Under the pieces are notes generated by a model, which had not been told where the DNA came from, did not search any database, and was given only the letters and a program-made list of their open reading frames with translations. Below, piece after piece: positions 6,494 through 22,959 of a stretch of 35,471 nt of DNA. This DNA comes from Rhodospirillaceae bacterium (GTDB taxonomy: Bacteria; Pseudomonadota; Alphaproteobacteria; Bin65): NCBI GenBank assembly GCA_011523655.1, contig WTGH01000032.1:1-35471 (forward strand), written 5' to 3'. How positions within the stretch are numbered: the stretch's first letter is position 1; the number at the start of each line of letters is the position of its first letter. A program made the translations under genes and the position numbers.

Positions 6494-6515
6494 AGTTCCC
6501 TCCTTCGGTTGAAAT

Positions 6516-8767: not shown

Positions 8768-8850
8768 TCAATATGTCTCCGGCGCACCGTCAGCCCGCCG
8801 CCGGTTCGCCGGGCAGCATGATGCGCGGTCGCACGGCCGGCGCGCCGACG

Positions 8851-8862
8851 ATTACCGGTAAT
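8851..8862. promoter_or_regulatory. Perfect 12-bp palindrome ATTACCGGTAAT (candidate operator)
   Basis: A perfect dyad in the leader of the TAXI-TRAP operon, 84 bp before its start codon and about 30-45 bp downstream of the likely transcription start. A shorter perfect palindrome with the same ACCGGT centre lies at 9031-9038 in the same divergent region. The binding protein is unknown and no regulator gene is adjacent. Confidence 0.5.
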
Positions 8863-8900
8863 TTCCTGTGTCCGCAGGACTGGGCGCTGGCGGGCCTCGA

Positions 8901-8929
8901 ATCATAGTCGCCGGCCCCGGCGAACGCAA
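8901..8929 (-). promoter_or_regulatory. Sigma70-like promoter of the TAXI-TRAP operon
   Basis: On the minus strand the -35 element TTGCGT (8929-8924) is followed by exactly 17 bases and the -10 element TATGAT (8906-8901). The expected transcription start is near 8894, giving a leader of about 127 nt. The spacer itself contains a GC dyad (CGCCGG/CCGGCG), which may affect its bending or be an additional protein site. Confidence 0.55.
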
Positions 8930-8981
8930 TCGGCGCTTCGGCCCGCCGCATCCGCCGGTTCCCTTCGTGCCGGCCCTGCCG

Positions 8982-9109
8982 TTGACATGCTGCGTGTTTT
9001 GCAGGCAATCTCTGTATCCACACGGGAATTCACCGGTGATTTGGCCCGTGTTGCGGGCTATGGAATCAGCATCTCCGGAGATCTGGTTTTGCCGACCTGC
9101 ATGCAGATC
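8982..9109 (+). promoter_or_regulatory. Control region upstream of the DctP-TRAP operon with nested dyads
   Basis: The 502-bp gap 8768-9269 holds no convincing gene. On the plus strand a consensus -35 hexamer TTGACA sits at 8982-8987, but no good -10 follows at the right distance (GCAATC at 17 bases), which suggests an activator-dependent promoter. Immediately downstream are arms CACGGG (9021-9026) and CCCGTG (9045-9050) that nest the perfect palindrome CACCGGTG (9031-9038). Further on, arms GATCTG (9080-9085) and CAGATC (9104-9109) partly overlap the palindrome CTGCATGCAG (9097-9106). These are plausible operators; none is matched to a known regulator. Confidence 0.4.
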
Positions 9110-9269
9110 GACGACGGGATGGTCCGGCCTCCCGGACAGGCATCCGGATGGTTCCGGCGGCAGGGGCGTGCTGCGAAACGGCCGAATTCAGGATGCGTTT
9201 GGCAATGGAAGTACGGTAACCGATTCCAGGCGAATTCGATCGCCACGACAGTGAAGAGGGAGAGCAGTA

Positions 9270-10328: not shown

Positions 10329-10357
10329 TCCCCAGCCGGTTTACAGCGGTAAAGTCA

Positions 10358-10392
10358 TGCTCCGTGCGCTATCGCGTATAGCGCACGGAGCA
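10358..10392 (+). terminator. 15-bp perfect intercistronic hairpin after dctP
   Basis: Arms TGCTCCGTGCGCTAT (10358-10372) and ATAGCGCACGGAGCA (10378-10392) pair perfectly around CGCGT. The hairpin lies 30 bp after the binding-protein stop and 32 bp before dctQ. Only a short T-run follows (TTTT at 10397-10400), so partial termination or blocking of 3' exonucleases is likely, which would favour binding protein over permease production. Confidence 0.75.
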
Positions 10393-10424
10393 ACCGTTTT
10401 CGCCAGGGTAAACTCCTTGAACCC

Positions 10425-10991
10425 ATGTTGATCCTGTATCGCATCAGCGATCGCCTCGGCCGTTTTGTCAGTACCGTCGGCTCGCTGGTGGCATGGCTGA
10501 GCGTGCTGCTCATTGTGGTCATCGCGTTCGACGTGGTCACACGCCGGTTTCTTGTGCTCGGCTCGACCAAGCTGCAGGAGCTCGAATGGCACCTGCATGC
10601 CGTGCTGTTCCTGTTGTGCATCGGGTGGGGGTATATGAAGGACGCCCATGTACGCATCGAAATCGTGCATGAACGGCTGCCGCGCAAGGCGCAACTGTGG
10701 ATCGAGATGCTGGGCTGTCTTTTGTTTCTCATTCCGTATTGCGTGATTGTTTTCTATCACGGCACCGACTGGTGGGAGAAATCCTGGAACCTGGGAGAAA
10801 ATTCGGATTCGGCAACAGGATTGCCGCACCGCTGGATTATCAAGGCCTTTCTGCCGGCGGGAATTGTGTTCATCTTCCTGGCGGCGGTCAGCGTATTTTT
10901 GCGCAAGTTCGTCGAGTTGTTCGGTTCGTCAGTTATTCCGGAGACGGCCAGCGATGAGCCGGCCACGAGCCCGACGAGAGAGCTGCTATGA
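10425..10991 (+). CDS. dctQ: TRAP transporter small membrane subunit DctQ
   Basis: Small integral membrane subunit linking receptor and large subunit. The 188-aa product has four hydrophobic segments: LVAWLSVLLIVVIAFDVVTRRF (about 21-42), LHAVLFLLCIGWGYM, LGCLLFLIPYCVIVFY and LPAGIVFIFLAAVSVFL. DctQ-typical features are the D-VV-RRF pattern after TM1, the QELEWHL motif and the GYMKDAHVRIEIV loop. Its stop overlaps dctM (ATGA at 10988), so the permease subunits are translationally coupled. The ribosome site before ATG 10425 is weak, which fits low production relative to the binding protein. Confidence 0.9.
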   Translation: MLILYRISDRLGRFVSTVGSLVAWLSVLLIVVIAFDVVTRRFLVLGSTKLQELEWHLHAVLFLLCIGWGYMKDAHVRIEIVHERLPRKAQLWIEMLGCLLFLIPYCVIVFYHGTDWWEKSWNLGENSDSATGLPHRWIIKAFLPAGIVFIFLAAVSVFLRKFVELFGSSVIPETASDEPATSPTRELL

Positions 10992-12358
10992 TCGATTTTT
11001 TTATCGACTATATGCCGCTCTTCATGTTTGCGGCGCTCGGCATTCTCCTGTTCACCGGTTATCCGGTCGGCGCCATTCTGGGCGGCGTCGGGCTCGGCTT
11101 CGGATTTATCGGAATTGCATTCGGCGTATTTGCCCAGATCGAATTCTTCAATATCGTCTCGCGCATCTGGGGCGGAATTGCCGACAATCAGGTTCTCATT
11201 GCCATCCCCATGTTCATTTTCATGGGGACGATGTTCGAAAAGAGCGGCGTCGCAAGAGACCTTCTGCATTGCCTGCAGGTCCTGTTGTACAGGATTCCCG
11301 GGGGCCTGGCGCTGTCGGTTACCGCGATGGGCGTCATCATGGCGGCAATGACGGGAATCATCGGTGCCTCGGTCGTCATGATGACCATCATGGCCCTGCC
11401 CGTGATGCTGGAGCGGAACTACAACACGCCCCTGGCCACCGGCACGATCGCGGCATCCGGCACGCTCGGCGTGCTGATTCCGCCGAGCATTATGCTTGTC
11501 ATCATGGGCGAACTGCTCGGCCGGTCCGTCGGCAATCTGTTCGTGGCGGCCTTCTTTCCGGGCCTGCTGCTGGCCGGCCTCTACCTGGTTTACATCACGA
11601 CGCTATGCAGCCTGCGGCCCAAGCTGGCGCCGCCTTTGCCCCGCGAGCTGGGCCCTGAAAGCTACCGGGAACTGATCCGCCTTCTCCTGCGCGGATTTCT
11701 TCCGGCGATCTTCCTGATCTTCATGGTTCTCGGTTCGATTATCCTCGGCTGGTCTACGCCGACCGAGGCCGCCGGAATGGGGGCTCTGGGAGCCATTTTG
11801 CTTGCGGCGCTGAACCGGCGGCTGACATTCAGTCTGCTGCGCGAGGTCGTTGAGCGATCGATGCTCACCAACGCCATGATATTTTTCATCTTTATCGGCG
11901 CGACCGCATTTTCATACACGTTTCGCTCTCTCGGCGGCGACGAAATCGTCGTCGGCCTGGTGGACAGCGCCGGTCTCGGATCGTGGGGAATACTCTTTAT
12001 CCTGATGGCGATCGTATTCTTTCTGGGCTTTTTCTTCGACTGGATCGAGATCACGCTGATCGTCATTCCGGTCTTTGCGCCGATCGTGGAGTTGCTCGAC
12101 TTCTCCGGCCATGTGTCCAAGCTGGACGTCGTTTACTGGTTCGCCATTCTGCTTGCGGTGAACCTGCAAACGTCGTTCCTCACGCCGCCGTTCGGATTTG
12201 CGCTGTTTTATATGAAGGGCGTGGCCCCGCCCCAGGTGAAGATCCAGCAGATTTACGTCGGCATCATTCCGTTCGTGCTCCTGCAGCTGACCGGATTGGC
12301 GCTTATCATGGCATTTCCCGAAATCGCCATGTGGCTGCCGAGACAGCTGCTCAATTGA
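10988..12358 (+). CDS. dctM: TRAP transporter large membrane subunit DctM
   Basis: Large sodium-coupled transport subunit, 456 aa with about 12-13 hydrophobic segments. DctM hallmarks are IPMFIFMGTMFEKSGVARDLL near residue 75, a first discontinuous-helix repeat around MAAMTGIIGASVVMM, and the stretch LATGTIAASGTLGVLIPPSIM (about 147-167). It also has a GWSTPTEAAGMGALGA segment and a second repeat near LQTSFLTPPFGFALFYMKG. It is the last gene of the operon. A 380-bp gap with GC-rich inverted repeats separates it from the convergent amidase. Confidence 0.93.
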   Translation: MIDFFIDYMPLFMFAALGILLFTGYPVGAILGGVGLGFGFIGIAFGVFAQIEFFNIVSRIWGGIADNQVLIAIPMFIFMGTMFEKSGVARDLLHCLQVLLYRIPGGLALSVTAMGVIMAAMTGIIGASVVMMTIMALPVMLERNYNTPLATGTIAASGTLGVLIPPSIMLVIMGELLGRSVGNLFVAAFFPGLLLAGLYLVYITTLCSLRPKLAPPLPRELGPESYRELIRLLLRGFLPAIFLIFMVLGSIILGWSTPTEAAGMGALGAILLAALNRRLTFSLLREVVERSMLTNAMIFFIFIGATAFSYTFRSLGGDEIVVGLVDSAGLGSWGILFILMAIVFFLGFFFDWIEITLIVIPVFAPIVELLDFSGHVSKLDVVYWFAILLAVNLQTSFLTPPFGFALFYMKGVAPPQVKIQQIYVGIIPFVLLQLTGLALIMAFPEIAMWLPRQLLN

Positions 12359-12473
12359 CGAATTTCGGGGACAGAACCCCCCTTCCAACTTAATTGTTCG
12401 CCGGAAGTGCCGAAGGCGGCGTCGCGCGACAAAGATCCGGCGCTCATCTGTCGATACCAATATAATAATGTTG

Positions 12474-12568
12474 CCCCGGATTTAATCTGGGGCCCAGAGT
12501 CGTTAAGTGAGGTCGTGCCGGGCGGCTCTGGTCCCCGGATTTCCGCTTCGCTCCATCCGGGGTGGCAC
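12474..12568. repeat. REP-like inverted repeats between convergent dctM and amidase genes
   Basis: The gap 12359-12738 has no supportable gene. It contains a hairpin CCCCGGAT/ATCTGGGG with a TTA loop (12474-12492, one G-T pair). A larger nested dyad follows: CCCCGGAT (12533-12540) and ATCCGGGG (12555-12562), flanked by GTGCC (from about 12515) and GGCAC (to 12568). These could serve as bidirectional terminators for the two converging transcripts or be a mobile REP element. The rest of the gap shows nothing recognisable. Confidence 0.5.
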
Positions 12569-12738
12569 TGAGGGGCGGTTAACGGCATCGGCCGTCGTAA
12601 CGGCAGTGGGCCGAAAACGCATCGTCACGAATTTGATCCACGGCATTTTTGCGCCGACCGACAGAATGCACAAAGAAGCAACGCGGCCGTGTAGGCGCCG
12701 CCTTTTCCTGTTCGCTTCTCCGGCCGTAATGTCCTCTA

Positions 12739-14142
12739 TCAGGACGCCAGATCGGGCTTCCTGCCGGCCCACGGCCTGGCGGCTTCGAACGCCGCAGCGG
12801 CGCGGAAAATGTCTTCCTCGTGCAGGATCTTCGAGACCATCTGCATGCCTACGGGCAGGCCGTCCCGCGTCCAGCCTGCCGGCACCGAGGCGGCGGGCTG
12901 GCCCGTCAGGTTGAACGGATAGGTGTAGTAGACCCACGACACGATGTTACGGTCGGGCAGTTCCGGCGGCGCGTCGCACCCCACGTCGAAAGCGGGGACG
13001 GGAAGCGTCGGCGTCAGGAGCAGATCGTAATCCTCGAAAAAGGTCCGCATCTTTTCGCGGAAGTCGTAACGCGCAAAAACCTTGGCGTAGTAATCGCCCA
13101 TCTCCTGGTCGAGCGCACCGGCCAGGACCTCGGCCACCGCCGGGTCGAGCAGTTCGGGCTTGTTGGCGAGCACGTCCTTCAGCCGGGTGCCGACGCCGGC
13201 ATAGAACTCCGCCATCCAGATCGGCAGCGGGTCTTCATCCATGACCTGTTCGACGAGATCGACCGTGCAACCCAGGTCCTCGAACGTCCGGACGGCATCT
13301 TCAACGATGGCAACGACTTCGTCGGAGGGCTGCGCGTAGCCGAGCGTCGGACTCCACGCCAGGCGCATGCCTTTGACCGGACGGTCGCAGGCGGCCAGGA
13401 AATCGGGCACGGGCTGCGCGACGCCGAAGGGGTCTCGCCGGTCGTGTCCGGCGACCGCGCCCAGCAGGAGCGCGCCGTCGCGAACGGTCCGCGTGAGCGG
13501 GCCGACATGGGCGAGCGTCGGCGTGGCGCTCGCCGGATAAACCGCGACTCGCGCGAACTGCGCCTTGATGCCGAACAGGCCGCTGAGCGAGCTCGGGATG
13601 CGCACGGACCCGCCGCCGTCGGTTCCCAGCGCAAACGGCGTGATCCCGGCCGCGACGCTGGTGGCGGCGCCGCAGCTCGATCCGCCCGGCGTCTTGGCGA
13701 GGTTCCAGGCGTTGGGCGTGACCCCGGTCAGCGGGCTGTCGCCGACCGCCTTGCAGCCGAACTCGCTGGTCGTGGATTTGCCGACGATGCAGGCGCCCTG
13801 CCGGCGCGCCCGGTCAACCGAGGGCGCGTCGACCGCCGCCACATTGTCCGCCATGGCGCGGGAGCCGAAGGTCAGCTTCAGGCCGTCCACGGCGATCAGG
13901 TCCTTGACCGAAATCGGCAGGCCGTGCAGCAGGCCGAGGTCTTCGCCCGCCATCACGGCATTCTCGGCCTTCCGTGCCGCCTCCAGCGCCAGGTCCGGCG
14001 AATTCTGGACGAAACAGTTGAGCGTGGGTTCCAGCCCTTCCATCCGCTCCAGGGACGACGCGACGAGGTCGACCGGCGAGATGTCCCGGCGTGCGATCAG
14101 ATCCTTCAACTCGATCGCCGTCATGAAAGCGAAGTCGCTCAT
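12739..14142 (-). CDS. Amidase-signature family amidase
   Basis: A 467-aa serine hydrolase of the amidase signature family, which cleaves carboxamides to acid and ammonia. The Ser-cisSer-Lys triad is visible: K80 in HGLPISVKDL, S155 in TPGGSSCGAA and nucleophile S179 in GTDGGGSVRIPSS. The spacing K80/S155/S179 matches the family closely. The usual GGSSGG has a Cys in place of the first following Gly. It could be confused with GatA, but no gatB or gatC neighbours exist, and it ends a transporter-cyclase-GTPase cluster, so a catabolic amidase is more likely. GGGAGGACAGGAACG gives a strong ribosome site before ATG 14142, only 31 bp after the GTPase stop. Confidence 0.92.
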   Translation of the reverse strand: MSDFAFMTAIELKDLIARRDISPVDLVASSLERMEGLEPTLNCFVQNSPDLALEAARKAENAVMAGEDLGLLHGLPISVKDLIAVDGLKLTFGSRAMADNVAAVDAPSVDRARRQGACIVGKSTTSEFGCKAVGDSPLTGVTPNAWNLAKTPGGSSCGAATSVAAGITPFALGTDGGGSVRIPSSLSGLFGIKAQFARVAVYPASATPTLAHVGPLTRTVRDGALLLGAVAGHDRRDPFGVAQPVPDFLAACDRPVKGMRLAWSPTLGYAQPSDEVVAIVEDAVRTFEDLGCTVDLVEQVMDEDPLPIWMAEFYAGVGTRLKDVLANKPELLDPAVAEVLAGALDQEMGDYYAKVFARYDFREKMRTFFEDYDLLLTPTLPVPAFDVGCDAPPELPDRNIVSWVYYTYPFNLTGQPAASVPAGWTRDGLPVGMQMVSKILHEEDIFRAAAAFEAARPWAGRKPDLAS

Positions 14143-14173
14143 CGTTCCTGTCCTCCCGACGCGGACCGCCTCG

Positions 14174-15304
14174 TCAGATCGCGCCCGTACCGCGTTCGAA
14201 TACCGGCGTGTCCGACGCCGAACGGCAGGCCACGAGGCGTCGTTCGATATCGTCGCCCTTCAAAGCCCGGCCGATCAGCACGAGGCGCGTCTGCGCCTTG
14301 CCGCCGGGCCACGTCTCTGCATAAGTCGGCGGGCTGAAGACCTCCTGCACACCCTGGAGAATTACCGGCCGGTCGTTGCCGACGAAACGGCACAGCCCCT
14401 TCACCCGGTACAGGTCGGCGCCATACTCCCCGGTGAGTTCGACCATCAGCTCCATGAGCCGGTGATAGTCGAGGGGATGTTCCTCCTCGATGCACACCGC
14501 GGACACATCGCCGTGGTCGTGGTGGCCGTGATCGTCGTGATGGTCGTGATGGTCGTGATGGTCGTTATGATCGTGCCCCGTGCCGTTGCCGTCCCGCGCG
14601 GCAGCGTCGACGATGCCGATCCAATCCCCGAGCGAACTTTCCCTGATCTTCGGCTCGAACAGGTCGAGATCGAGCAGCCGGTCGAGAGCGATCGCCGAGT
14701 GGGTGGTGATTTCCTTCACCGAATACGGATTGAGCCCGTTCACCGCCGAGACAGACGCGCGAAACTCCGTTTCCCCGACCAGGTCCCGCTTGTTGAGGAT
14801 CAGCTTGTCGGCGATCGCAACCTGTTTCCTGGCTTCGTCGTTGGCTTCGAGCTGGCCGCCGACATGCTTCAGATCGACCAGGGTGATAATGGCATCCAGC
14901 CGGTAGGACAGGTTGAGCTGCATGTCGGTATACAGCAGCTGGGCCAGCGGCGACGGGTCGGCGATACCCGTCGTCTCGACCAGGACCCGGTCGAACTCGA
15001 TCTGCGGTTCGAGCGCGCCGACCCGGCGCATGAACGCCGTGTACAGGGTTTCGACAAGGTCGTCCTTGCTGGCGCAGCAGATGCAGCCGTTGGTCAGCTC
15101 CAGCATGTCGTCCGAGGCGCGGGCGATCAGGTCCGAATCGATGCCGATCTCGCCGAACTCGTTGACGATGACCAGGCACTTGCCGCTGCCGGGATCGGCG
15201 AGGACGTGGTTGACCAGCGTCGTCTTGCCCGCGCCCAGGAAACCGGTCACGAAGGTGATCGGCACCCGCGGATCTTCCTCCGCTGCGGACGGGCGGACAG
15301 ACAT
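14174..15304 (-). CDS. CobW/COG0523-family GTP-binding protein (putative metallochaperone)
   Basis: A 376-aa G3E GTPase. Motifs are Walker A GFLGAGKTT (21-29), the metal-binding C74-x-C76-C77 (GCICCAS), ETTG (110-113) and NKRD (171-174). A His/Asp-rich loop spans residues 243-265 between the GTPase domain and the C-terminal CobW-C domain. Relatives insert or deliver Zn, Co, Fe or Mn to client enzymes; some activate nitrile hydratase beside amidase genes. Here it sits between a metal-dependent cyclase and an amidase, so the cyclase is the likeliest client. That client is inferred. The start at ATG 15304 has a modest AAGG ribosome site. Confidence 0.92.
   Translation of the reverse strand: MSVRPSAAEEDPRVPITFVTGFLGAGKTTLVNHVLADPGSGKCLVIVNEFGEIGIDSDLIARASDDMLELTNGCICCASKDDLVETLYTAFMRRVGALEPQIEFDRVLVETTGIADPSPLAQLLYTDMQLNLSYRLDAIITLVDLKHVGGQLEANDEARKQVAIADKLILNKRDLVGETEFRASVSAVNGLNPYSVKEITTHSAIALDRLLDLDLFEPKIRESSLGDWIGIVDAAARDGNGTGHDHNDHHDHHDHHDDHGHHDHGDVSAVCIEEEHPLDYHRLMELMVELTGEYGADLYRVKGLCRFVGNDRPVILQGVQEVFSPPTYAETWPGGKAQTRLVLIGRALKGDDIERRLVACRSASDTPVFERGTGAI
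14510..14578 (-). repeat. 9-bp tandem repeat encoding the His-rich loop of the GTPase
   Basis: Four consecutive units of GTCGTGATG (plus strand, the fourth with one change, 14534-14569), flanked by degenerate units, encode repeated Asp-His-His/His-Asp. Because the unit is a multiple of three, slipped-strand changes would lengthen or shorten the metal-binding loop without breaking the frame. Confidence 0.8.
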
Positions 15305-15332
15305 GCCGTTTCAGCCTTTCACGCCCCACCCC

Positions 15333-15354
15333 CGCGCCGGCCGAAGCCGGCGCG
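15333..15354 (-). terminator. TTCG-capped 9-bp hairpin between cyclase and GTPase genes
   Basis: Perfect arms CGCGCCGGC and GCCGGCGCG close on TTCG when read on the transcribed (minus) strand, an exceptionally stable tetraloop hairpin. It lies 33 bp after the cyclase stop. No T-run follows, so it probably stabilises the upstream message or reduces read-through rather than ending transcription. Confidence 0.65.
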
Positions 15355-15372
15355 AGGGCGGGCGCGCTCCCT

Positions 15373-15396
15373 CCCTCAATCGAGCCCTCAATCGAG
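15373..15396 (-). repeat. 12-bp tandem duplication at the cyclase stop codon
   Basis: CCCTCAATCGAG occurs twice in succession on the plus strand. On the coding strand the unit farther from 15373 carries the last cyclase codons and the TGA stop, so the end of the gene has been duplicated just downstream. It looks like a recent slippage or repair product. Confidence 0.75.
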
Positions 15397-16083
15397 CACG
15401 GCCCAGGCCCGCACCGGCGAGCCGCTGCCGTTGTTGATCTTGAGCGGCGGGCCGTAGAACATGAACTCTCCCTTGCCGACCAGCTCTTCGAGGTTGATCA
15501 GCCATTCGTAGTGGGAGATGCCCCGGTCCCGGCACACGCGATGGTTCGGGAATTCGTCCCAGGACGGCTTGTCCGTCGACGGCCCCTCGACACCGTGGAA
15601 GGTCGAGTTGCGGTCGGCCAGCCAGTGGGTCGCTTCCGCGGTCAGCCCCGGATTGCTCCAGACCACCTTGATGTCCGGATAGTGGCGGTTGTGCAGGCCC
15701 GTGTTGAGCAGGACGATGTGGCCGTCGACCTTGACGCCGCCCTTCGCCTCCGCTTCCTCCATATCCGCCACGTCGATATCGCCGAGATCGGGAATGTGGG
15801 TCATGTCCCAGCACACGGCCTTACCCATGAAGATCTCGAGCGGCATCTTGTCGACCGACGCGCCGTTCGGATTGACGTGGTAGAAGGCGTCGACGTGCGT
15901 GGCGATGTGGTCGATGGTGCCGATATAGGTCGTGGCGAATGTCAGCCGGTCGCCCGGCACGCCGAGGTTGAACGACTTGGTCTGGTCGTGCGTCAGATGC
16001 GGGACGACAACCGGCCGCTGGAACAGCTTGTGCGCCGGCATGTTGTCTTCCAGCGTCAGGGTCAGATCGACAATTTGCGACAT
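15388..16083 (-). CDS. Cyclase-family metal-dependent hydrolase (kynurenine formamidase/isatin hydrolase-like)
   Basis: A 231-aa member of the cyclase superfamily (Mn- or Zn-dependent hydrolases such as KynB and isatin hydrolase). Starting MSQIVDLTLTLEDNMP, it has the metal motif H59-x-x-x-H63-x-D65-x-x-x-H69 (IDHIATHVDAFYHV), a variant of the usual HxGTHxDxPxH. A later VLLNTG strand and the GVEGPSTD segment are family-like. Members hydrolyse formamides or open cyclic amides; the substrate here is unknown. It is not certain to be a kynurenine enzyme since no kynurenine-pathway genes are adjacent. A near-perfect AAGGAGGT ribosome site precedes ATG 16083. It follows the Liv transporter genes on the same strand. 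Confidence 0.9.
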   Translation of the reverse strand: MSQIVDLTLTLEDNMPAHKLFQRPVVVPHLTHDQTKSFNLGVPGDRLTFATTYIGTIDHIATHVDAFYHVNPNGASVDKMPLEIFMGKAVCWDMTHIPDLGDIDVADMEEAEAKGGVKVDGHIVLLNTGLHNRHYPDIKVVWSNPGLTAEATHWLADRNSTFHGVEGPSTDKPSWDEFPNHRVCRDRGISHYEWLINLEELVGKGEFMFYGPPLKINNGSGSPVRAWAVLD

Positions 16084-16098
16084 GGACTTTACCTCCTT

Positions 16099-16137
16099 GC
16101 TTTCCCGGTTAAGGGCTTTCCCGGTTAAGGGCTTTCC
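16099..16137. repeat. 16-bp tandem repeat upstream of the cyclase gene
   Basis: GCTTTCCCGGTTAAGG is repeated twice exactly with a third partial copy (16099-16114, 16115-16130, 16131-16137). It abuts the cyclase ribosome site. On the coding strand each unit contains TTAACCGG. It may be a slippage product or a duplicated protein/RNA site controlling the enzyme half of the operon. Confidence 0.75.
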
Positions 16138-16145
16138 TCGATTTA

Positions 16146-16167
16146 GCGCCGCTTACCCATGCGGCGC
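16146..16167 (-). terminator. Hairpin in the livF-cyclase gap
   Basis: Arms GCGCCGC (16146-16152) and GCGGCGC (16161-16167) around an eight-base loop in the 160-bp gap after livF. No T-run follows on the transcribed strand. It may partly insulate the enzyme genes from the transporter genes. The gap otherwise contains only GC-rich sequence and the tandem repeat. Confidence 0.4.
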
Positions 16168-16243
16168 CGGACCTGTTCGGGGCGCGGTTCCCGTCCGCCG
16201 CCGCGTTGCGGCGTGCCGGTCCGGTCCGGCCCGCGACCGCTTC

Positions 16244-16978
16244 TCAACCTGCCTTCCTCCGTCCCAGATAGGCCTCGATGACGCGCTCGTCGCTGGCCAG
16301 TTCCCGGGACGGGCCGCTGAGAAGAATTCGTGAATCCTCCATGACGTAACTTCTGTGGGCATAGCGCAGGGCGACCGTGGCCAGCTGCTCGACCAGCAGG
16401 ATCGCCAGTCCTTCCCGGTTCAGCGTTTCGATGACCGGGAACAGCGTTTCCAGAACCCGGGGGGCGAGCCCCAGGGACATCTCGTCGATCATGAGCAGGC
16501 GGGGCCGCGAGAGCAGGCCCCGCGACAGGGCCAGCATCTGCTGCTCGCCGCCCGAAAGGCTGCCGGCAAGCTGCTGGCGCCGGTCCCTCAGGATCGGGAA
16601 CAGCGCGAACATGCGCTCGAGGTCCTCGGACACCTCCTTAGACCGGCCGCCGCCGCGCCGCGCGTAGGCGCCGAGGTACAGATTGTCCTCGACGGTCTGG
16701 TCGGCGAAGATCAGGCGGCCTTCGGGGACCATCGACAGGCCCCGGCGCACGACGTCGTAGGACGCCATGCCGGCGATCGGCTTGCCGTCCAAGACGATTT
16801 CGCCGCCCGCCGGTTTGACGACGCCGGCGATGGCCTTCAGGGTCGAACTCTTTCCCGCGCCGTTGTTGCCGATGATCGAGACATATTCGCCTTCCTCGAC
16901 CAGGAGCGACACGTCGCGCACCGCCTCGACATGCCCGTAGGTCACGGACAGGTTCTTCACTTCGAGCAGGGCGGCCAC
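16244..16978 (-). CDS. livF: Branched-chain-amino-acid-type ABC transporter ATPase LivF
   Basis: ATPase subunit of a Liv/HAAT-family importer, 244 aa. It shows Walker A GNNGAGKSS (about 37-45), the LivF-typical SMVPEGRLIFADQTVEDNL (Q-loop side), signature LSGGEQQMLALSRGL, Walker B LLMIDEMSLGLAP and H-region LLVEQ. The GTG start lies 2 bp after the livMG stop; GGAGG at the end of livMG serves as its ribosome site. Many Liv systems import amides, urea, aromatic acids or heterocycles rather than amino acids, so the substrate should be judged from the downstream cyclase and amidase. Confidence 0.93.
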   Translation of the reverse strand: MAALLEVKNLSVTYGHVEAVRDVSLLVEEGEYVSIIGNNGAGKSSTLKAIAGVVKPAGGEIVLDGKPIAGMASYDVVRRGLSMVPEGRLIFADQTVEDNLYLGAYARRGGGRSKEVSEDLERMFALFPILRDRRQQLAGSLSGGEQQMLALSRGLLSRPRLLMIDEMSLGLAPRVLETLFPVIETLNREGLAILLVEQLATVALRYAHRSYVMEDSRILLSGPSRELASDERVIEAYLGRRKAG

Positions 16979-16980
16979 GG

Positions 16981-18804
16981 CTACGCCTCCCCGCCTGCGC
17001 CTTCGGGCGCCAACCCGTCGCCGAAGCTCTGGCTGCCGAAATAGGCCTCGATCACCTTGGGATCGGTCTGCACCTCCTCGGCAGTGCCGGAGGCGATCAG
17101 TTCGCCGTAGTCGAGCACAGTCACATGATCGGAAATCTCCATGATCAACTCGACATGGTGCTCGACGATCAGGATGGTTATGCCGTTCGCCGCCAGTTCG
17201 CGGACCAGTGCGATAAGCTGCTCGATCTCCGCATGGGTCAGGCCGGCCGCCGGCTCGTCCAGCAGCAGCAGCTTGGGCGAGAGCGCGAGCGCCCGGGCGA
17301 TTTCGAGCTGCCGTTGATGGCCGAACGCCAGGTTTTCGGCTTTCTCGTGGGCATAGGCGGAAAGGCCGACATAGCCGATCAGGTCCATCGCCGCCTTCTG
17401 GAAATGCCGCTCGTCCCGCCCGAAGGACGGCAGACGGCAGATCGTCGAGAAAATGTTGGACCGGTATTCCTTGTGGAAGGCGACCAGCACGTTCTCAAGC
17501 ACGGTCATGTTCGAGAACAGCTCGGTATTCTGGAACGTGCGCGCCAGCCCGAGACGGGCGAGTTGATGGCTGTTGAGCTGCGTCGTGTCCCGGCCGAGGA
17601 AGGTGATGCTGCCGGAATCGGCCCGGTAAACCCCGGAAATCGCGTTGAGGAAGGTCGATTTGCCCGCGCCGTTCGGCCCGATCAGCGCGTGGATCTTGCC
17701 CGAATCGACGGTTTCGTCGACCTTATCGACCGCGACGAGGCCGCCGAAAGCAACCGAGACCCCCCGGGCGTCGAGGCAGGCCGATCCGTCGGTCTGCTCG
17801 ACCGCGATGATATCGGCGAGGCGGGGGCGCTCCGCCTGCACGGCGTCCGGTCTCGCTTCGGCCATGCGGCCCGACAGGAAATGTTCGACCGAGCCGACGA
17901 TCCCGCGCGGCAGGACGAACATCACAGCGGCCAGCAGCAGGCCGTAGGCGAAAGCCTGCCAGGGGCCGAACGCCTGCAGATATTCCGGCAGGTAGGTCAT
18001 AATCGAGGCGCCGACCACGGGGCCGAGCGCGGTCCCCGACCCGCCGAGGATGACCATGAGCAGGAAACGGATCGAATCGGTGAAGGAGAAGATGTCCGGG
18101 CTGATATACTTGTTGAGATAGACATAGAAGACGCCGGCCGCGCCCGCCGCCATGGCCGAGACGACGAAGGCCAACGTACGGATCGCGACCACGTTGATTC
18201 CGAGAGACCGCGACGCGATTTCGCTTTGGGCGGTGGCCCGCATGGCCCGGCCGTAACGCGAGTTCATCAGGTTCAGATTGACGAGAAAGGCGATCAGCGC
18301 GCTCGCGCCGACCACGATGAAATAGGCGTTGGTGTCGAGCGGCAGGCCGAGCAATGTCGGCGCCGGCACGTTCGATATGCCGACCCAGCTCCCCGTCAGG
18401 CTGTCCCACTCGATGGCGACATTCTCGACGATGATGCCGAAGGCGATGGTGACGACGGCGAGGTAGACGCCGCGCACCCGCACCGTCGGGTAGGCGAGCA
18501 GGACGCCGAAGGCGCCGGCAAGCGCCATGCCCAGGATCAGGCCGGGCACCAGCCCGACGCCCAGCCGCGTCGCGAGGATCGCGGCGGTGTAGGCGCCGAT
18601 GGCGTAGAGCCCGGCCTGGCCCAGGGAGACCAGCCCGGTCAGGCCGACCAGCACGTTCAGGCCGAGCGCGATGATCGCGTAGATCAGCAGAAGCGTGATC
18701 AGCCGCAGTTCGTATTCGTTGGCGGCGATGTGCGGCAGCACGAGAATGAGGATCGCCGCGGCGACGACGAAGGCCGGATTGAAGTGGCGCGCGATCCGGC
18801 TCAT
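16981..18804 (-). CDS. LivM-LivG fusion: ABC importer permease plus ATPase
   Basis: A single 607-aa chain joins the LivM permease and the LivG ATPase. Residues 1-310 carry about nine hydrophobic segments with the LivM motifs GLTGLVSLGQAGLYAIGAY (54-72) and MVILGGSGTALGPVVGA (250-266). After a linker (about 311-340) the ATPase follows: Walker A GPNGAGKST (377-385), LARTFQNTELFSNMTVLENV, signature LAFGHQRQLEIARAL, Walker B LLLLDEPAAGL and IVEHH. ATG 18804 overlaps the livH stop (ATGA), which fixes the start. A longer open frame to 19593 only reads through livH out of frame. Such fusions are known in other bacteria. Confidence 0.93.
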   Translation of the reverse strand: MSRIARHFNPAFVVAAAILILVLPHIAANEYELRLITLLLIYAIIALGLNVLVGLTGLVSLGQAGLYAIGAYTAAILATRLGVGLVPGLILGMALAGAFGVLLAYPTVRVRGVYLAVVTIAFGIIVENVAIEWDSLTGSWVGISNVPAPTLLGLPLDTNAYFIVVGASALIAFLVNLNLMNSRYGRAMRATAQSEIASRSLGINVVAIRTLAFVVSAMAAGAAGVFYVYLNKYISPDIFSFTDSIRFLLMVILGGSGTALGPVVGASIMTYLPEYLQAFGPWQAFAYGLLLAAVMFVLPRGIVGSVEHFLSGRMAEARPDAVQAERPRLADIIAVEQTDGSACLDARGVSVAFGGLVAVDKVDETVDSGKIHALIGPNGAGKSTFLNAISGVYRADSGSITFLGRDTTQLNSHQLARLGLARTFQNTELFSNMTVLENVLVAFHKEYRSNIFSTICRLPSFGRDERHFQKAAMDLIGYVGLSAYAHEKAENLAFGHQRQLEIARALALSPKLLLLDEPAAGLTHAEIEQLIALVRELAANGITILIVEHHVELIMEISDHVTVLDYGELIASGTAEEVQTDPKVIEAYFGSQSFGDGLAPEGAGGEA

Positions 18805-19676
18805 ACCTTGACGAGTTCCCTGCGTCCGAACAGGCCCTGCGGGAACAGCATCAGCACGACGATGACGAGGCTGAAGCCCACGGCCTCCCGCGCCGCGGTG
18901 CTGATGTAGCCGTCGACGAATTTCTCGATGATTCCGTAAAGCAGCCCGGCGATCACGACGCCCGGTGCGCTGGTGATGCCGCCGATGATGGCGACTGCGA
19001 AGCCCTTGATGCCGAGCAGCAGGCCCATGGTCGCCGACGCTTGGATGACCGGGGCGACCAGGATGCCCGCAAGGCCGCCGAGGGCGCTGGCGAGCGCGAA
19101 GGAGAACATGGCGACGTGCAGCACGTTGATGCCGACGATGCCCGCCGCGACCCGGTTGAAGGCGACGGCCCGCATGGCGCGGCCGAGTTGCGTCCGGCGC
19201 TGGAAGATCCCGAGCAGAACGACGATCAGGACCGCGACGAACGGGATCAGCAGTTCCTGGATGAAGACGCCGGCCCCGAAGATGATGATCGGCTTGTCGA
19301 CGCCGGGCGACGGCAGCGGACGGGCGAACGCGCCGAATTCGATGGTCGCGTAGCTCTCGAGCATGATGCCGATGGCGATCGTCGTCAGCATCCAGCCGAT
19401 CGAGGCGGCGTGGTCCGCGAAGGGCCGGATGGCGACCCGTTCCAGCACGACCCCGAAGACGATGGCGACGCCGATCGACAGCAGGATCGCCAGGGGCATG
19501 GCGATTCCGTGGTCGAGAAAGACGATGGTGAGCACGGCGCCCAGCATCAGCGTGTCGCCGTGGGCGAAGTTCACGGCCTTGGCCGACGACCACATGATGT
19601 GGAAGCCGATCGCAACCAGCGCATAGATGCCGCCGATCCCGAGCCCGGCCAGAAAATACTGGAGGGCGGCGCTCAT
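18801..19676 (-). CDS. livH: Branched-chain-amino-acid-type ABC transporter permease LivH
   Basis: Permease subunit of the Liv importer, 291 aa with about eight hydrophobic segments. LivH hallmarks are GLGIGGIYALVAIGFHIMWSSA near the N-terminus, AVNFAHGDTLMLGA (34-47), RTQLGRAMRAVAFN (about 161-174) and GIKGFAVAIIGGITSAPG (about 222-239). It overlaps livMG by four bases. The ribosome site before ATG 19676 is weak; a strong hairpin lies between it and livK, so permease synthesis is probably much lower than that of the binding protein. Confidence 0.93.
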   Translation of the reverse strand: MSAALQYFLAGLGIGGIYALVAIGFHIMWSSAKAVNFAHGDTLMLGAVLTIVFLDHGIAMPLAILLSIGVAIVFGVVLERVAIRPFADHAASIGWMLTTIAIGIMLESYATIEFGAFARPLPSPGVDKPIIIFGAGVFIQELLIPFVAVLIVVLLGIFQRRTQLGRAMRAVAFNRVAAGIVGINVLHVAMFSFALASALGGLAGILVAPVIQASATMGLLLGIKGFAVAIIGGITSAPGVVIAGLLYGIIEKFVDGYISTAAREAVGFSLVIVVLMLFPQGLFGRRELVKV

Positions 19677-19728
19677 GGAATGCGGCCTGTCAAGGGCGGG
19701 AATTCAAAGGAAAATTGCAGAGGAAACC

Positions 19729-19755
19729 CCGGGGCGCGCCAGCGACGCGCCCCGG
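19729..19755 (-). terminator. 10-bp intercistronic hairpin between livK and livH
   Basis: Arms CCGGGGCGCG (19729-19738) and CGCGCCCCGG (19746-19755) pair perfectly around seven bases. It is located 12 bp after the binding-protein stop and 53 bp before livH. The sequence after it on the transcribed strand has only short T stretches, so it probably attenuates or protects rather than fully terminates. Confidence 0.7.
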
Positions 19756-19766
19756 AGGCAGTCCGT

Positions 19767-20960
19767 CTACTTGCAGGGCGTCTGCGAGAGCGGCAGCAGC
19801 TCGCCGTTATACCAGGCGGTCAGCTTGTAGGCGCTCGGCAGGATCGCATCGTGGCGTTCTTCCGTCCGCTCGAAGGCCGGGTCGTAATTCATCACCAGCC
19901 CTTTGTGCTTCACCTTGAACATGGCCTCGTAGACCTTCTGCCGGTCGTAGCTGCCGGCGATCGCGATGGCCTTGGCGATGATGTGGATGGCGTCATAGGC
20001 GTCGGCCACGCCGCTGCCCATGCGGATCTCCTTCTGGCTCTTGATGCCATAACGCTTCTGCATGATGGCGTAGAGCTTCTGGGCCCGCGGCTCCAGTTTG
20101 CCCATCCAGGAATAGGTCTGCATGATGAGCGCGCAGTTGGCCAGCTTGCCGGCCAGCTCGCCGAGGTTGCCGGCAAAGCCCCAGGCGCCGATCTTGACCG
20201 GGTCCCAGCCGATCTTCTGCAGGCTGCGCATGATCTGGTTGCCTTCGCGGTCGAGGCCCCACATCACCAGCGATTCGGCGCCCGCCTTGCGCAGGCGGAT
20301 GAGCTGCGGGGTCATGTCGGTATCGCGCCAGTTGAAGGTCTCGGCGCCGACCTCCTTGGTGCCCTGCTCGCGCAACGCGGCCTGGATGTTGGGATAGGCG
20401 CCTTTGCCCCACCCCGTATTCTCGTACATGATCCCGACCTTGTTGTTCGGCGAGCGCTTGAGCGCCTCGGCGACCAGGAACTTGGAGACCCAGCGGTCCT
20501 TGGCCGACACGCGGAACATGTAGTTGGGATTGCGGCCGTTCTCGATCACCTTGGTGTTGGCCGCGATCACGCCGACATAGACCATCTTGATCTCGTGGAT
20601 CGGATCGCGCATGGCGAGCGCCACGGTCGAATGGTAGCCGCCCAGCATCGCGACGCAGTTGTCCCGCAGGCCGATGCGCCGGACATTGTCGACACCGCGC
20701 GGCGGCGCGCCGCGATCGTCGTACTGGATGAACTTGAGCTTCTTGCCGAGGACGCCGCCGGCGGCGTTGATCTCGTCAACCGCCATCTCGGCGCCCATCC
20801 TGATGGATTTGCCGCCGAAGGCCGCCGGCCCCGTCACCGGGCCGGAATTTCCGATACAGGGGTTCGCCTCGGCAGCGTTGGCCGGGCCGGCTCCCAGAGC
20901 AATCGCGGTGGCGAAGATCGCCGCTCCGCCGATCGCGGTACGCAGTGCAAGTTTCGACAT
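19767..20960 (-). CDS. livK: Liv-type ABC transporter periplasmic binding protein
   Basis: Type I periplasmic receptor of the Liv family, 397 aa. A Sec signal peptide (MSKLALRTAIGGAAIFATAI..., cleavage near ANAA) is followed by the receptor fold: IGNSGPVTGPAAFGGKSIRMG, AEMAVDEINAAGGVLGKKLKF, YDDRGAPPRGV, and the second lobe VGIMYENTGWGKGAYPNIQ. The extended open frame to 21167 is rejected because ATG 20960 has GAGGGAGGAAGCGAT directly upstream and begins the signal peptide. Two cysteines (in NPCIGN near the mature start and TPCK at the very end) might pair. It is the first gene of the operon, divergent from a LysR regulator. Confidence 0.92.
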   Translation of the reverse strand: MSKLALRTAIGGAAIFATAIALGAGPANAAEANPCIGNSGPVTGPAAFGGKSIRMGAEMAVDEINAAGGVLGKKLKFIQYDDRGAPPRGVDNVRRIGLRDNCVAMLGGYHSTVALAMRDPIHEIKMVYVGVIAANTKVIENGRNPNYMFRVSAKDRWVSKFLVAEALKRSPNNKVGIMYENTGWGKGAYPNIQAALREQGTKEVGAETFNWRDTDMTPQLIRLRKAGAESLVMWGLDREGNQIMRSLQKIGWDPVKIGAWGFAGNLGELAGKLANCALIMQTYSWMGKLEPRAQKLYAIMQKRYGIKSQKEIRMGSGVADAYDAIHIIAKAIAIAGSYDRQKVYEAMFKVKHKGLVMNYDPAFERTEERHDAILPSAYKLTAWYNGELLPLSQTPCK

Positions 20961-21192
20961 ATCGCTTCCTCCCTCAAAATCTCCGCACCGGGCGGGACTT
21001 CCGTGCCCGGCGTTGCGGGGCGCAACACGGCAACTGCACGGGAGGCGCCGTCTATCGCCGAAGCAGATCGGGCGAACCGGCTGTTCCCGACAGGAAATCC
21101 GCATGTCCGATGCCTTGGCCGCCCCGGACCGCGCCGGACGACAAAGTGTATTCGCCGGCGACGCCATCGATCAATAATATAATGACAATATC

Positions 21193-21215
21193 TAATATCA
21201 TTTGAATTGATATTA
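21193..21215. promoter_or_regulatory. LysR-type operator 1 (ATC-N9-GAT)
   Basis: Perfect arms TAATATCA (21193-21200) and TGATATTA (21208-21215) around TTTGAAT form an ATC-N9-GAT dyad, the classical LysR recognition layout. It lies in the AT-rich part of the livK/LysR divergent gap. A second site with the same 6-bp ends is at 21263. Confidence 0.65.
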
Positions 21216-21231
21216 TTATGTTATAACATAA
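21216..21231. promoter_or_regulatory. 16-bp perfect palindrome next to operator 1
   Basis: TTATGTTATAACATAA is a perfect dyad starting one base after the first LysR-type site. It includes TATAAC/GTTATA and may overlap a -10 region on either strand or be a half-site cluster for the same or another regulator. Confidence 0.5.
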
Positions 21232-21262
21232 CACTAAAATCCAGCAGTTTTTCCAATTTCTC

Positions 21263-21281
21263 ATATCATTTCGAATGATAT
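21263..21281. promoter_or_regulatory. LysR-type operator 2 (ATC-N9-GAT)
   Basis: Arms ATATCATT and AATGATAT around TCG; it matches operator 1 in the outer ATATCA/TGATAT and in an AT-rich core. Centre-to-centre distance to operator 1 is 68 bp, about 6.5 helical turns. The rest of the gap 20961-21438 (the part next to livK, and 21300-21420) is ordinary GC-rich DNA without visible signals. Confidence 0.6.
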
Positions 21282-21438
21282 ACGATTGTATCGGTATCTA
21301 TGGTTCTTGGGTTCTTGCGACCGGCGGAGTGCGAACGGGCATAGTTCCCGTTTCCGGCTCGTTCGCAAACCGCAGGATGCGTATCCGGCGGGCGCCCCCG
21401 CGCCGCGTTTCAAATCCGCTATGGGGAGGCGAGGCGAT

Positions 21439-22362
21439 ATGGTCGATTTCAAGCAGCTGAAGTATTTCGTGCAGATCGCCGAGGCCGGCAGCCTGTCGCG
21501 CGCCGCCGAGCAGCTCAACGTCGTCCAGCCGTCGCTGAGCCAGCAACTCCGCAAACTGGAAGAGCAGCTGGGCGTGGAACTGGTGACGCGCCATTCCCGG
21601 GGCGTGACGCCCAACGAGGTCGGCCGCCTGCTCCTCGACCATGCGCGCTCGGTCCTGCTGCAGCTCCAGCGGACGGAGGAACTGGTCCAGTATCACGCCT
21701 CGAACCCGTCCGGCGAAGTCCGGCTGGGCCTGCCGACCTCGGCCGCCCGCGGCCTGACCATTCCGCTCGTCAACGCGGTCGAGGACCGCTTCCCCGGCAT
21801 CTCGCTTCACGTCGTCGAGGGCATGAGCGGGCACCTGACCGAGTGGCTCCACGTCGGCCGGCTCGATATGGCGCTGCTCTACGACGCCAAGTCCCACGAG
21901 GGGATCCACGTCCAGCCCTTCATGGCGGAAGACCTGTATCTCATTTGCCCGCCGACCCGCGAATTCCGCCGGATGAAGGCCATCCGGTTTGCCGAGGCGG
22001 CAAAGCAGCCGCTGGTGCTGCCGGCGCTGCCGCACACCATCCGGCTGGTGCTCGAGGAGACCGCGGCGCGGACCGGATACCAGCTGTCGGTCAGGATCGA
22101 TCTGGATTCCCTGCCCAGCATGATCGAGCTGGTTTTCGAGGGCTATTGCACGATCCTTCCGCAGTTCGCGGTGTCGAAGGAAGTCGCAGCCGGCCAGATG
22201 ACCGCGGTGCCGCTGATCGATCCGCAGCTCTCCTGGCAGCTATCGGTTGCGTCCGTCGTGCGTGGCGTGCAGTCGCGCGCGACCAGGGCCGTCTCCGCCC
22301 TCATGCTCGAAGTGATGGAGAGCATGGTGCGCAACGGCGAGTGGCCCGGCCGGTTGCTGTAG
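21439..22362 (+). CDS. LysR-family transcriptional regulator
   Basis: A 307-aa LysR-type regulator. The N-terminal winged helix-turn-helix (residues 3-62) contains FKQLKYFVQIAEAGSLSRAA, ...LNVVQPSLSQQLRKLEEQLG and LVTRHSRGVTPNEVG. The effector domain follows from about 90 (GEVRLGLPTSAARG). The overall pattern resembles the NAC-like branch, but that is not decisive. ATG 21439 is selected because GGGGAGGCGAGGCGAT precedes it and the protein then starts MVDFKQLKYF; a longer in-frame start at 21286 adds unconserved sequence and would run close to the operators. It is divergent from livK, so autoregulation and activation of the Liv-cyclase-amidase operon are expected. Confidence 0.92.
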   Translation: MVDFKQLKYFVQIAEAGSLSRAAEQLNVVQPSLSQQLRKLEEQLGVELVTRHSRGVTPNEVGRLLLDHARSVLLQLQRTEELVQYHASNPSGEVRLGLPTSAARGLTIPLVNAVEDRFPGISLHVVEGMSGHLTEWLHVGRLDMALLYDAKSHEGIHVQPFMAEDLYLICPPTREFRRMKAIRFAEAAKQPLVLPALPHTIRLVLEETAARTGYQLSVRIDLDSLPSMIELVFEGYCTILPQFAVSKEVAAGQMTAVPLIDPQLSWQLSVASVVRGVQSRATRAVSALMLEVMESMVRNGEWPGRLL

Positions 22363-22425: not shown

Positions 22426-22959
22426 CTATTCGTCGATCTCGCCGGTGAAATAGTTGACGTGGGTGTCGCCCTGGTAGAAGCGGAAGAAATACTCGTCGTG
22501 GATGTCCTTGCCCTCGTAGAATTCGGCAAGCCCCCGGTTCCAGTCCGCCCCGCCGAGCACGCCGACCTTGCCGGAATCCGGATATTCGGTGATTTCCGGC
22601 ATGTGGTTGGTCGACAGGCACAGATAGACCAGGTCGCTATCGCCGGTGTTGACCAGCTTGTGGGCCAGGTGCCGGCCGACGGGCAGGGCGGCGTAGTCGC
22701 CCGCCGACACCACGACATCGTCTTCGCCGATGGAGAGCGTGCCGGTCCCTTCGAGGATAAACAGGGCCTCCTCGTTGCGAATGTGCGAGTGCCTCGGAAA
22801 GGCGTATTTTCCGGGCGCAACCCGGAAATGGCTGCAGCCCAGCTCCACGTTGCCGGCAGAACTGCCCAGCCCTCTGACGATATGGTGGAACTTGTCGGCG
22901 ACGGCGATTTCCTTCGGCTCGATATCGTTGATGTTGATCACATGCTTGTGGCGGGCCAT
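22426..22959 (-). CDS. Cupin-domain protein
   Basis: A 177-aa single-domain cupin. Motif 1 is PRHSHIRNEEALFILEGTG (HxH with a downstream Glu, about 56-74), and motif 2 is GDYAALPVGRHLAHKLVN (about 87-104) with its His. Together they form a likely metal site. Cupins of this kind bind a small ligand or act as isomerases or dioxygenases; no substrate can be assigned. The C-terminal 50 residues (KVGVLGGADWNRGLAEFYEG and DEYFFRFYQGDT) are rich in acids and aromatics and resemble cupins that bind modified sugars or acids. GGAAGGAGCATCTGCC precedes ATG 22959. The CmcJ/NvfI-like gene ends 37 bp upstream on the same strand, so the two are probably co-transcribed. Confidence 0.85.
   Translation of the reverse strand: MARHKHVININDIEPKEIAVADKFHHIVRGLGSSAGNVELGCSHFRVAPGKYAFPRHSHIRNEEALFILEGTGTLSIGEDDVVVSAGDYAALPVGRHLAHKLVNTGDSDLVYLCLSTNHMPEITEYPDSGKVGVLGGADWNRGLAEFYEGKDIHDEYFFRFYQGDTHVNYFTGEIDE

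Follow-up and report, generated by a model that had tools for sequence, protein, structure and literature searches.

What does a bacterium gain from an operon in which a Liv-type importer is joined to a putative ring-opening metallohydrolase, a GTPase of the COG0523 family, and an amidase, and why should the GTPase be there at all? This question is raised by the window analysed here, the whole 35,471-nucleotide (nt) stretch of contig WTGH01000032.1 (Rhodospirillaceae bacterium, assembly GCA_011523655.1; GC content 66.5%). Pfam and NCBIfam scans recovered livK, livH, a fused livMG, livF, a PF04199 cyclase, a COG0523 GTPase, and an amidase, in this order on the minus strand, with a divergent LysR regulator, which confirms the gene content, order, and strands given in an earlier note on this DNA, including its count of seven minus-strand genes, if the livMG fusion is taken as one. 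The cassette is real and widespread, and apparently represents an undescribed form of a system of known type. The pairing of the GTPase with the cyclase is the strongest point of the case, and the identity of the substrate, the weakest. No description of this gene set was found in the open-licence literature, as searched by title and the opening of the abstract, which does not imply its absence elsewhere.

The core of the system emerges from its distribution. The scan of species genomes with the cyclase returned 122 matches, and the locus counts given here refer to the best 80 of these loci, with 64–98% identity (the L-numbers are locus labels). These loci come from the alpha-, beta-, and gammaproteobacteria (Pseudomonadota), the Actinomycetota, and the Bacillota, and an amidase lies downstream of the cyclase, with or without the GTPase between them, in 73 of the 80. 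The contig runs out in four of the seven exceptions (L040, L063, L112, and L113), and the other three are taken up below. The Liv genes precede the cyclase in 38 loci and a divergent LysR gene lies upstream in 44, and other loci present a TRAP importer (in place of Liv in six of the 80), an MFS carrier accompanied by SDR and IclR genes, or a Pot-type ATP-binding cassette (ABC) importer. Given that the transporter and the regulator vary between loci, the cassette is best described as a cyclase and an amidase with exchangeable import and control. Five of six other genomes of the same genus have the cyclase at an identity of at least 97%, and the next best match is 41% (among 61 genomes from the genus, family, and class). 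In the Burkholderiaceae, the family of the Cupriavidus genome, the cyclase cassette is present in one of 299 genomes, that Cupriavidus genome only. A neighbourhood limited to close relatives, which the earlier note had named as fatal to its proposal, is thus not what was found, as the cassette extends across three phyla, and the general idea of an import-and-hydrolysis cassette, in which a metal-dependent ring-opening or deformylating hydrolase is followed by an amidase, is supported.

Some of these loci have surroundings of their own. In Indioceanicola profundi (L122, positions 75–14483), a TRAP-cyclase-amidase cassette and the methylamine dehydrogenase (mau) genes are a few kb apart, and a transposase lies in the interval. 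In Peribacillus cavernae (L066, approximately 10760–12150), amidase matches are found in two successive open frames that adjoin a Liv set, with a second cyclase 2.3 kb upstream.

The GTPase (14174–15304, minus strand; 376 amino acids, aa) belongs to COG0523, with its cobW G domain (PF02492, 158.6 bits), GCxCC motif (GCICC in this copy), and CobW_C domain (PF07683, 74.0 bits), and is the predicted metal supplier of the cyclase. The GCxCC motif is found in all 25 of the aligned cassette GTPases, and the His/Asp-rich stretches are long in the window genus (12 His in the window copy) and shorter or absent in the other members. Where the sequence continues for 1,000 nt or more beyond the cyclase (77 loci), the GTPase is present in 24 and absent in 53, and this division follows the relationships of the cyclases: the gene lies directly after the cyclase in all 24 of the loci of one clade that have sequence there, and in none of the 53 others. 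This clade spans the alpha-, beta-, and gammaproteobacteria, and the importers in its 24 GTPase loci are of the Liv (four loci), MFS (four), and TRAP (four) types, or are unrecognised by the importer panel (12). On the cyclase tree, the GTPase label requires two changes, one of them being L040, where the contig ends 83 nt after the cyclase, and the support for the clade is modest (83/82); in a quick tree of 90 rows, a single change is needed (support 84).

The genomes themselves tell a similar story. In 14 cassette genomes with no GTPase in the cassette, no full-length homolog at E ≤ 1e-40 exceeds 40% identity, and six of these (one of them a 0.9 Mb genome) have no match at that level, while in four genomes with the GTPase, the cassette copy is 51–90% identical. 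An obligate partnership between the GTPase and the cyclase is ruled out by the 53 loci without the GTPase and the 14 genomes with no close homolog; being restricted to a clade and absent from most of the loci, the GTPase is a lineage companion of one cyclase clade, and not a requirement. The earlier note had proposed that the GTPase loads the cyclase with metal, and the tie between the two genes holds in this one clade and fails as a general need. In a further sample of eight genomes of the class from outside the genus, three correspond to L052, L056, and L060, and the new loci are L159, which has pieces of the GTPase, and L160–L163, which have none. Locus L159 is an awkward case for the clade rule, given that its cyclase (71% identical to that of the window) is placed outside the clade by the quick tree, on a long branch, and is accompanied by two fragments of the GTPase, at 69% and 43% identity. 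This GTPase (8221–9277, minus strand) is split over two frames, as either a decaying gene or an assembly error.

A distinct COG0523 gene lies near the cassette in the Rubrobacteria (loci L061, L067, L068, L164, L166, L167, and L168). In L061 and its near-copy L164, this gene immediately precedes the cyclase; in L067, L166, L167, and L168, it is found 3.8–4.6 kb upstream and on the opposite strand. A 42% relative of this gene is found 6.9 kb downstream in Pseudonocardia (L099). In a quick tree with long branches, the Rubrobacteria gene forms a group with two paralogs from the window genome that is separate from the cassette GTPases (support for the cassette group, 68).

Amidase-signature enzymes use no metal, and as the core has no metallohydrolase other than the cyclase, this enzyme is the most likely client of the GTPase. 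The alternative is that the GTPase serves general zinc homeostasis, or some other client, and is carried by linkage, a view that is compatible with any of the other explanations discussed below. The many cyclase loci with no GTPase are consistent with this alternative, as is the abundance of COG0523 genes, with nine PF02492 matches in the window genome. Chance linkage sits less easily, however, with a gene that immediately follows the cyclase wherever a clade member has sequence there, across three proteobacterial classes and three importer types, or with the second COG0523 lineage near the cassette in the Rubrobacteria, and the metal-free amidase family points back to the cyclase. Carriage by linkage is thus regarded as unlikely, although it retains a substantial share of the probability.

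The cyclase (15388–16083, minus strand; 231 aa) is a member of PF04199 by a wide margin (105.3 bits against a gathering cut-off of 23.1), and is predicted to be the ring opener. Its residues H59, H63, D65, H69, H181, and E193 are invariant in all 81 of the aligned cyclase rows, and correspond to His50, His54, Asp56, His60, His161, and Glu173 of KynB, as given in the available part of PMC4243253. The full set of KynB-type two-metal ligands (His, His, Asp, His, and Glu), together with the catalytic His, is thus present in the sequence of every row, and the predicted fold of the cyclase agrees with a metal site of this type. The arylformamidase model TIGR03035 is the sole NCBIfam match of the cyclase at E ≤ 0.001, and its score of 49.5 bits is far below the cut-off of 223.05. 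An identity as isatin hydrolase was also rejected. The GLQC/GLAS motif of this enzyme, which goes with a mononuclear Mn site and was compared here as a motif alone, is replaced by HYEW in the aligned stretch, where Glu193 aligns with the Gln of GLQC and occupies the position of Gln219 in isatin hydrolase A. By these sequence criteria, the cyclase is neither KynB nor isatin hydrolase.

The amidase (12739–14142, minus strand; 467 aa), the predicted second step, matches PF01425 at 315.8 bits, and K80, S155, and S179, which we take to be the Ser-cisSer-Lys triad of the amidase-signature enzymes, are among the positions that differ in no more than one of the 73 aligned rows. The Pfam match and the conserved Lys-Ser-Ser set place it in the amidase-signature family, and its scores fall below all the curated cut-offs of the AtzE, GatA, allophanate hydrolase, and indoleacetamide hydrolase models. 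As biuret hydrolase and allophanate hydrolase are among its solved relatives, carbamoyl chemistry would be within the range of the family, although the similarity does not in itself indicate such chemistry.

Given this, the operon is tentatively read as a system that imports and degrades a small cyclic nitrogen compound, with a cyclic ureide, such as hydantoin or N-methylhydantoin, as the likely substrate of the LysR/Liv/cyclase/GTPase/amidase set, a reading that falls somewhat short of an even chance. The Liv importer would bring in a cyclic ureide, or a compound that is converted to one, and the cyclase would hydrolyse the ring amide by means of a metal-bound hydroxide, as suggested by KynB and isatin hydrolase, to yield an N-carbamoyl compound. 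The amidase would then split this product into an amino acid, CO2, and ammonia, the last of these being the gain to the cell, and, in one clade, the GTPase would maintain the cyclase in its metal-bound state. What we infer here is the substrate, the sequence of the two steps, zinc as the metal, and the cyclase, rather than the amidase, as the client of the GTPase. The case for the opening of a cyclic ureide followed by carbamoyl hydrolysis is based on the KynB-type metal site and on the ureide- or creatinine-type hydrolases that neighbour the cassette in 23 of the 80 loci (24, if a 31% M20 match in L103 is included). A more specific version, in which a zinc-dependent PF04199 opener and an N-carbamoyl amidase form an ATP-independent route from N-methylhydantoin or a sister ureide to an amino acid, the clade GTPase being a metal insertase and the Rubrobacteria having recruited another COG0523 protein, is doubtful, and is put forward as a conjecture.

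The neighbouring genes form several recurrent sets. In seven of the 80 loci (L073, L078, L079, L085, L088, L090, and L092), the amidase is followed by a Pot-type importer, a COG0402 amidohydrolase, and a creatininase, and L098 has the same set without the creatininase; a Liv set is missing from four of the eight. The creatininase exceeds its curated cut-off (370.8 against 235 in L085), as found in seven of these eight genomes. A Bradyrhizobium plasmid has the Pot-COG0402 set at the opposite end of the cassette, upstream of Liv, where the COG0402 match is broken into two pieces and carries no gene annotation. The relatives of the COG0402 protein in Sinorhizobium and Ensifer adjoin a nucleoside hydrolase, and the evidence suggests a nucleobase-type deaminase of unspecified substrate. 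A further true creatininase, adjoining SDR genes, is found in each of the genomes of L078 and L073 (G062 and G061, respectively; loci L134 and L136), with an agmatinase-like ureohydrolase in L134.

In the Rubrobacteria, an M20 enzyme follows the amidase in all seven loci, and a dihydropyrimidinase is present in six (the sequence of L068 ends before it). In L061, the dihydropyrimidinase scores 618.7 against a cut-off of 393.25, and the M20 enzyme is assigned to the hydantoinase/carbamoylase family (315.6 against 204), with N-carbamoyl-L-amino acid hydrolase as its best solved match. Homologs of both enzymes are found in the Pseudonocardia locus L099, and a dihydropyrimidinase homolog (43%) follows the cyclase in L160. 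The latter locus (approximately 3700–7800) presents, in one run, two unlike cyclases (42% and 67% identical to that of the window), a distant amidase homolog (29%), and this dihydropyrimidinase homolog.

In three lineages, the best solved match of a neighbouring gene is N-carbamoylsarcosine amidohydrolase (212, 245, and 214 bits). Such genes lie beside the cassette in one lineage (L043, L044, L047, L048, L051, and L052, of which the L043 copy was compared), in the Rubrobacteria (L061 copy compared), and beside the L087 cyclase, with a homolog in L099. A 77% relative of the L043 gene heads a HyuA-HyuB-type run in another genome. In L087, the cyclase begins 10 nt after a HyuA-HyuB-type pair, with the N-carbamoylsarcosine amidohydrolase-like gene adjoining and no amidase found in this locus. 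Homologs of HyuA or HyuB are found within 10 kb of the cyclase in five of the 80 loci, and are distant (26–33%) in L040, L042, L077, and L087.

A number of observations weigh against the cyclic ureide. Most of the loci, 57 of the 80 (56 if L103 is counted), show none of the satellite genes of the panel, the satellites differ by lineage, and the Methylobacterium loci have none, except for the weak M20 match (31%) in L103. Where the dihydropyrimidinase and the carbamoylase are present, as in the Rubrobacteria, these two enzymes would already cover both of the steps assigned here to the cyclase and the amidase. The best NCBIfam models of the HyuAB-type genes are the caprolactamase subunits, at scores below the cut-off, so that these neighbours could point to a lactam, and an acid would suit the copies linked to TRAP genes better than a neutral ureide would. 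The best solved matches of the window amidase are GatA (204 bits) and aryl acylamidase (200), ahead of biuret hydrolase (118). The amidase itself is missing from L056, L087, and L108, despite ample downstream sequence, and from two of the five further loci of the class (L160 and L163). The counts of dihydropyrimidinase, M20, and HyuAB neighbours, in addition, stand without a background rate. The ureide as such is thus the weakest link, given that most loci have no ureide satellite, and that the steps would be duplicated where the dihydropyrimidinase and the carbamoylase are present.

The co-occurrence of these genes across 385 genomes of the class, 12 with the cassette and 373 without it, provides a further control. 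Relatives of the L043 N-carbamoylsarcosine amidohydrolase-like gene (at least 200 bits) are found in seven of the 12 cassette genomes and 14 of the 373 others, and a true creatininase, in four and seven, respectively. The 200-bit threshold was fixed after the scores were known, however, and shared ancestry inflates both tests, with four of the 12 being one genus, and three of the seven, one other family; counted by genus, the contrast for creatininase is reduced to two of nine against seven of 267 (p = 0.03). One of the matches (G304) is the cassette neighbour itself, and 14 of the 21 genomes with an N-carbamoylsarcosine amidohydrolase relative have no cassette. Six neighbourhoods of these relatives were read, two of which belong to cassette genomes, and in no case does the relative lie next to the cyclase.

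A point in favour of the ureide is that the window genome is one of only 11 of the 385 with a true creatininase. On its contig C25, this gene adjoins Pot-type genes and a creatinase/M24 gene, with an FmdA-type gene nearby, and on C37, a relative of N-carbamoylsarcosine amidohydrolase lies approximately 5 kb from HyuAB homologs. In another alphaproteobacterium, which has its cassette elsewhere (G212, locus L217, 3859–16990, plus strand), Pot genes are followed by a COG0402 gene, a creatininase, a second COG0402 gene, two cytosine deaminase-like genes, an AtzD/TrzD-type ring opener, and an amidase. The ring opener scores above its AtzD-type cut-off, and the adjoining amidase is 32% identical to that of the window.

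The main rival to the cyclic ureide is a cyclic imide, of the succinimide, maleimide, or glutarimide type, which the cyclase would open to a half-amide, and from which the amidase would release ammonia and a dicarboxylate. The two-gene core needs nothing more for this route and fits an imide as well as a ureide, given that amidase-signature enzymes act on simple amides. TRAP importers often carry carboxylates, and the replacement of Liv by TRAP in six of the 80 loci would suit such a pathway, as would the asparaginase homolog found near the cassette in the Rubrobacteria and L099. The recurring satellites are nevertheless ureide- and creatinine-type hydrolases, and the neighbours alone speak against an imide; a literature search on imidases and half-amidases listed no match at the gene level, which is weak evidence. 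The imide route is considered rather improbable on balance.

A third possibility is that the cyclase is a KynB-like formamidase acting on an N-formyl compound, the product of which is taken by the amidase. The KynB-like metal site, with Glu193 where isatin hydrolase A has Gln219, is compatible with this activity, and arylformamidase is the only enzyme named by the NCBIfam match of the cyclase. This match reaches less than a quarter of the cut-off score, however, and no formamide-pathway gene was found in the subset of neighbours that was classified, with the FmdA-type gene of the window genome lying near its creatininase, away from the cassette. Deformylation is therefore given a small chance. 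The earlier note had left the substrate as an amide, imide, or formamide, and the satellite genes, in a minority of the loci, narrow this range toward the cyclic ureides, so that its interpretation is, overall, partly supported.

The likeness to a nitrile hydratase operon, on which the earlier note had drawn, is based on the adjacency of the amidase and the COG0523 gene, and a nitrile hydratase-like system that has lost its hydratase is scarcely credible, given that the only solved sequence relatives of the GTPase in the PDB are YjiA entries, that the nitrile hydratase activator (Nha3) clusters exclusively with Fe-type nitrile hydratase genes according to the available text of Haas et al. (2009; PMC2770081), and that the conserved partner of the amidase elsewhere is the PF04199 cyclase, mostly without this GTPase. 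As the earlier note had observed, no nitrile hydratase subunit is found among the Pfam matches of the operon proteins of the window, and no search aimed at this enzyme was made across the other loci.

The import side of the operon is a full LivKHMGF set, with a binding protein, two permeases, and two ATPases. The LivK-type substrate-binding protein (19767–20960, minus; PF13458, Peripla_BP_6, 167.7 bits) probably starts at 20960, as read by eye, and is followed by the LivH-type permease (18801–19676, minus; PF02653, 122.5 bits), the fused LivM permease-LivG ATPase (16981–18804, minus; 607 aa from the ATG at 18804, with PF02653 and PF00005 in a single open frame), and the LivF-type ABC ATPase (16244–16978, minus; PF00005, 98.4 bits; LivF model NF008626, 214 bits, below the cut-off of 441). 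The livMG fusion is also annotated on the Bradyrhizobium plasmid. None of the Liv proteins reaches the cut-off of a Liv or urea equivalog model, and the solved chains nearest to LivK are homologs of the Leu/Ile/Val-binding protein, at no more than 91.5 bits, a weak match. The genes are separated by 90 nt (livK-livH), 2 nt (livMG-livF), 160 nt (livF-cyclase), 83 nt (cyclase-GTPase), and 31 nt (GTPase-amidase), with a 4-nt overlap of livH and livMG, and this spacing makes a single transcript plausible. A terminator-like hairpin of 14 pairs between livK and livH (19727–19757, minus) could raise the abundance of LivK over the other genes; the region has seven terminator-like matches against a shuffle mean of 5.8, which is barely above chance.

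The divergent LysR regulator (21439–22362, plus; PF00126 and PF03466), for which the start at 21439 is also probable and read by eye, has NAC (NF008410) as its closest NCBIfam model, at 195.9 bits against a cut-off of 309. Two TATCA-N7-TGATA palindromes, at 21196–21212 and 21264–21280, were recovered by pattern search as candidate LysR operators, and are the only exact matches in the window, with none in 100 whole-window shuffles, a lenient control for an AT-rich livK-LysR gap. The paired form is found in five of five loci of the genus and in none of the 30 other loci with Liv and LysR, which makes it a genus-level candidate operator, through which LysR is inferred to control the operon.

Outside the operon, TRAP transporter permease genes (10425–12358, plus) converge on the amidase, and the same genes lie beside the amidase in L039 and L041, at 89–97% identity, with a second Liv set (36–44%) in L042 instead. 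On the other flank, a Cupin_2 protein (22426–22959, minus) adjoins LysR, with no NCBIfam match and no homolog in the 80 loci by the tblastn panel.

The interest of the cassette is twofold. To our knowledge, the clients of most COG0523 GTPases are unknown, and here the GTPase stays with one metallohydrolase clade while the importers and regulators change, so that the close sister enzymes with no GTPase offer a natural with-and-without pair for the study of its function. The cassette also represents a widespread and apparently uncharacterised nitrogen-scavenging unit, present in soil bacteria, methylotrophs, plant associates, and marine or sponge-associated species. If the ureide reading is true, it would add a further chemistry for the opening of small nitrogen rings to those of creatininase, dihydropyrimidinase/hydantoinase, and the ATP-dependent HyuAB.

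The cassette may finally be set against known systems, as described in the available parts of PMC2770081, PMC6117287, PMC4243253, PMC8864220, and PMC9699525. The last of these, on a metformin methylotroph, was dropped as a lead, given that the cyclase it describes is a diguanylate cyclase. The operon shares the K-H-MG-F set of the Liv/HAAT ABC importers of urea, amides, and branched-chain amino acids. Its GTPase has the G domain, GCxCC motif, CobW_C domain, and His-rich stretch common to the COG0523 G3E GTPases, such as YjiA, YciC, CobW, and Nha3, but neighbours a PF04199 cyclase, and the words “cyclase” and “branched-chain” are absent from the main text of the COG0523 survey (PMC2770081), its supplement and figures being outside this comparison. 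The cyclase is 18–29% identical to KynB and isatin hydrolase over structure alignments, and differs from these members of PF04199 in having an amidase as its operon partner. The cyanuric acid pathway (AtzD/AtzE) likewise pairs a ring opener with an amidase-signature hydrolase, although the ring opener of the cassette belongs to PF04199, and its amidase, at 207 bits on the AtzE model, is under the cut-off. The logic of hydantoinase plus carbamoylase is similarly one of two steps, with a PF04199 enzyme as the ring opener in the cassette. The catabolism of creatinine and N-methylhydantoin, which employs creatininase, a HyuAB-type hydantoinase, and N-carbamoylsarcosine amidohydrolase (PMC8864220, in the part available), is linked to the cassette by the presence of these gene families beside it in several lineages, and the proposed products would be the same, but the cyclase and amidase of the cassette come from other Pfam families, and the ring opening proposed here would be free of ATP.

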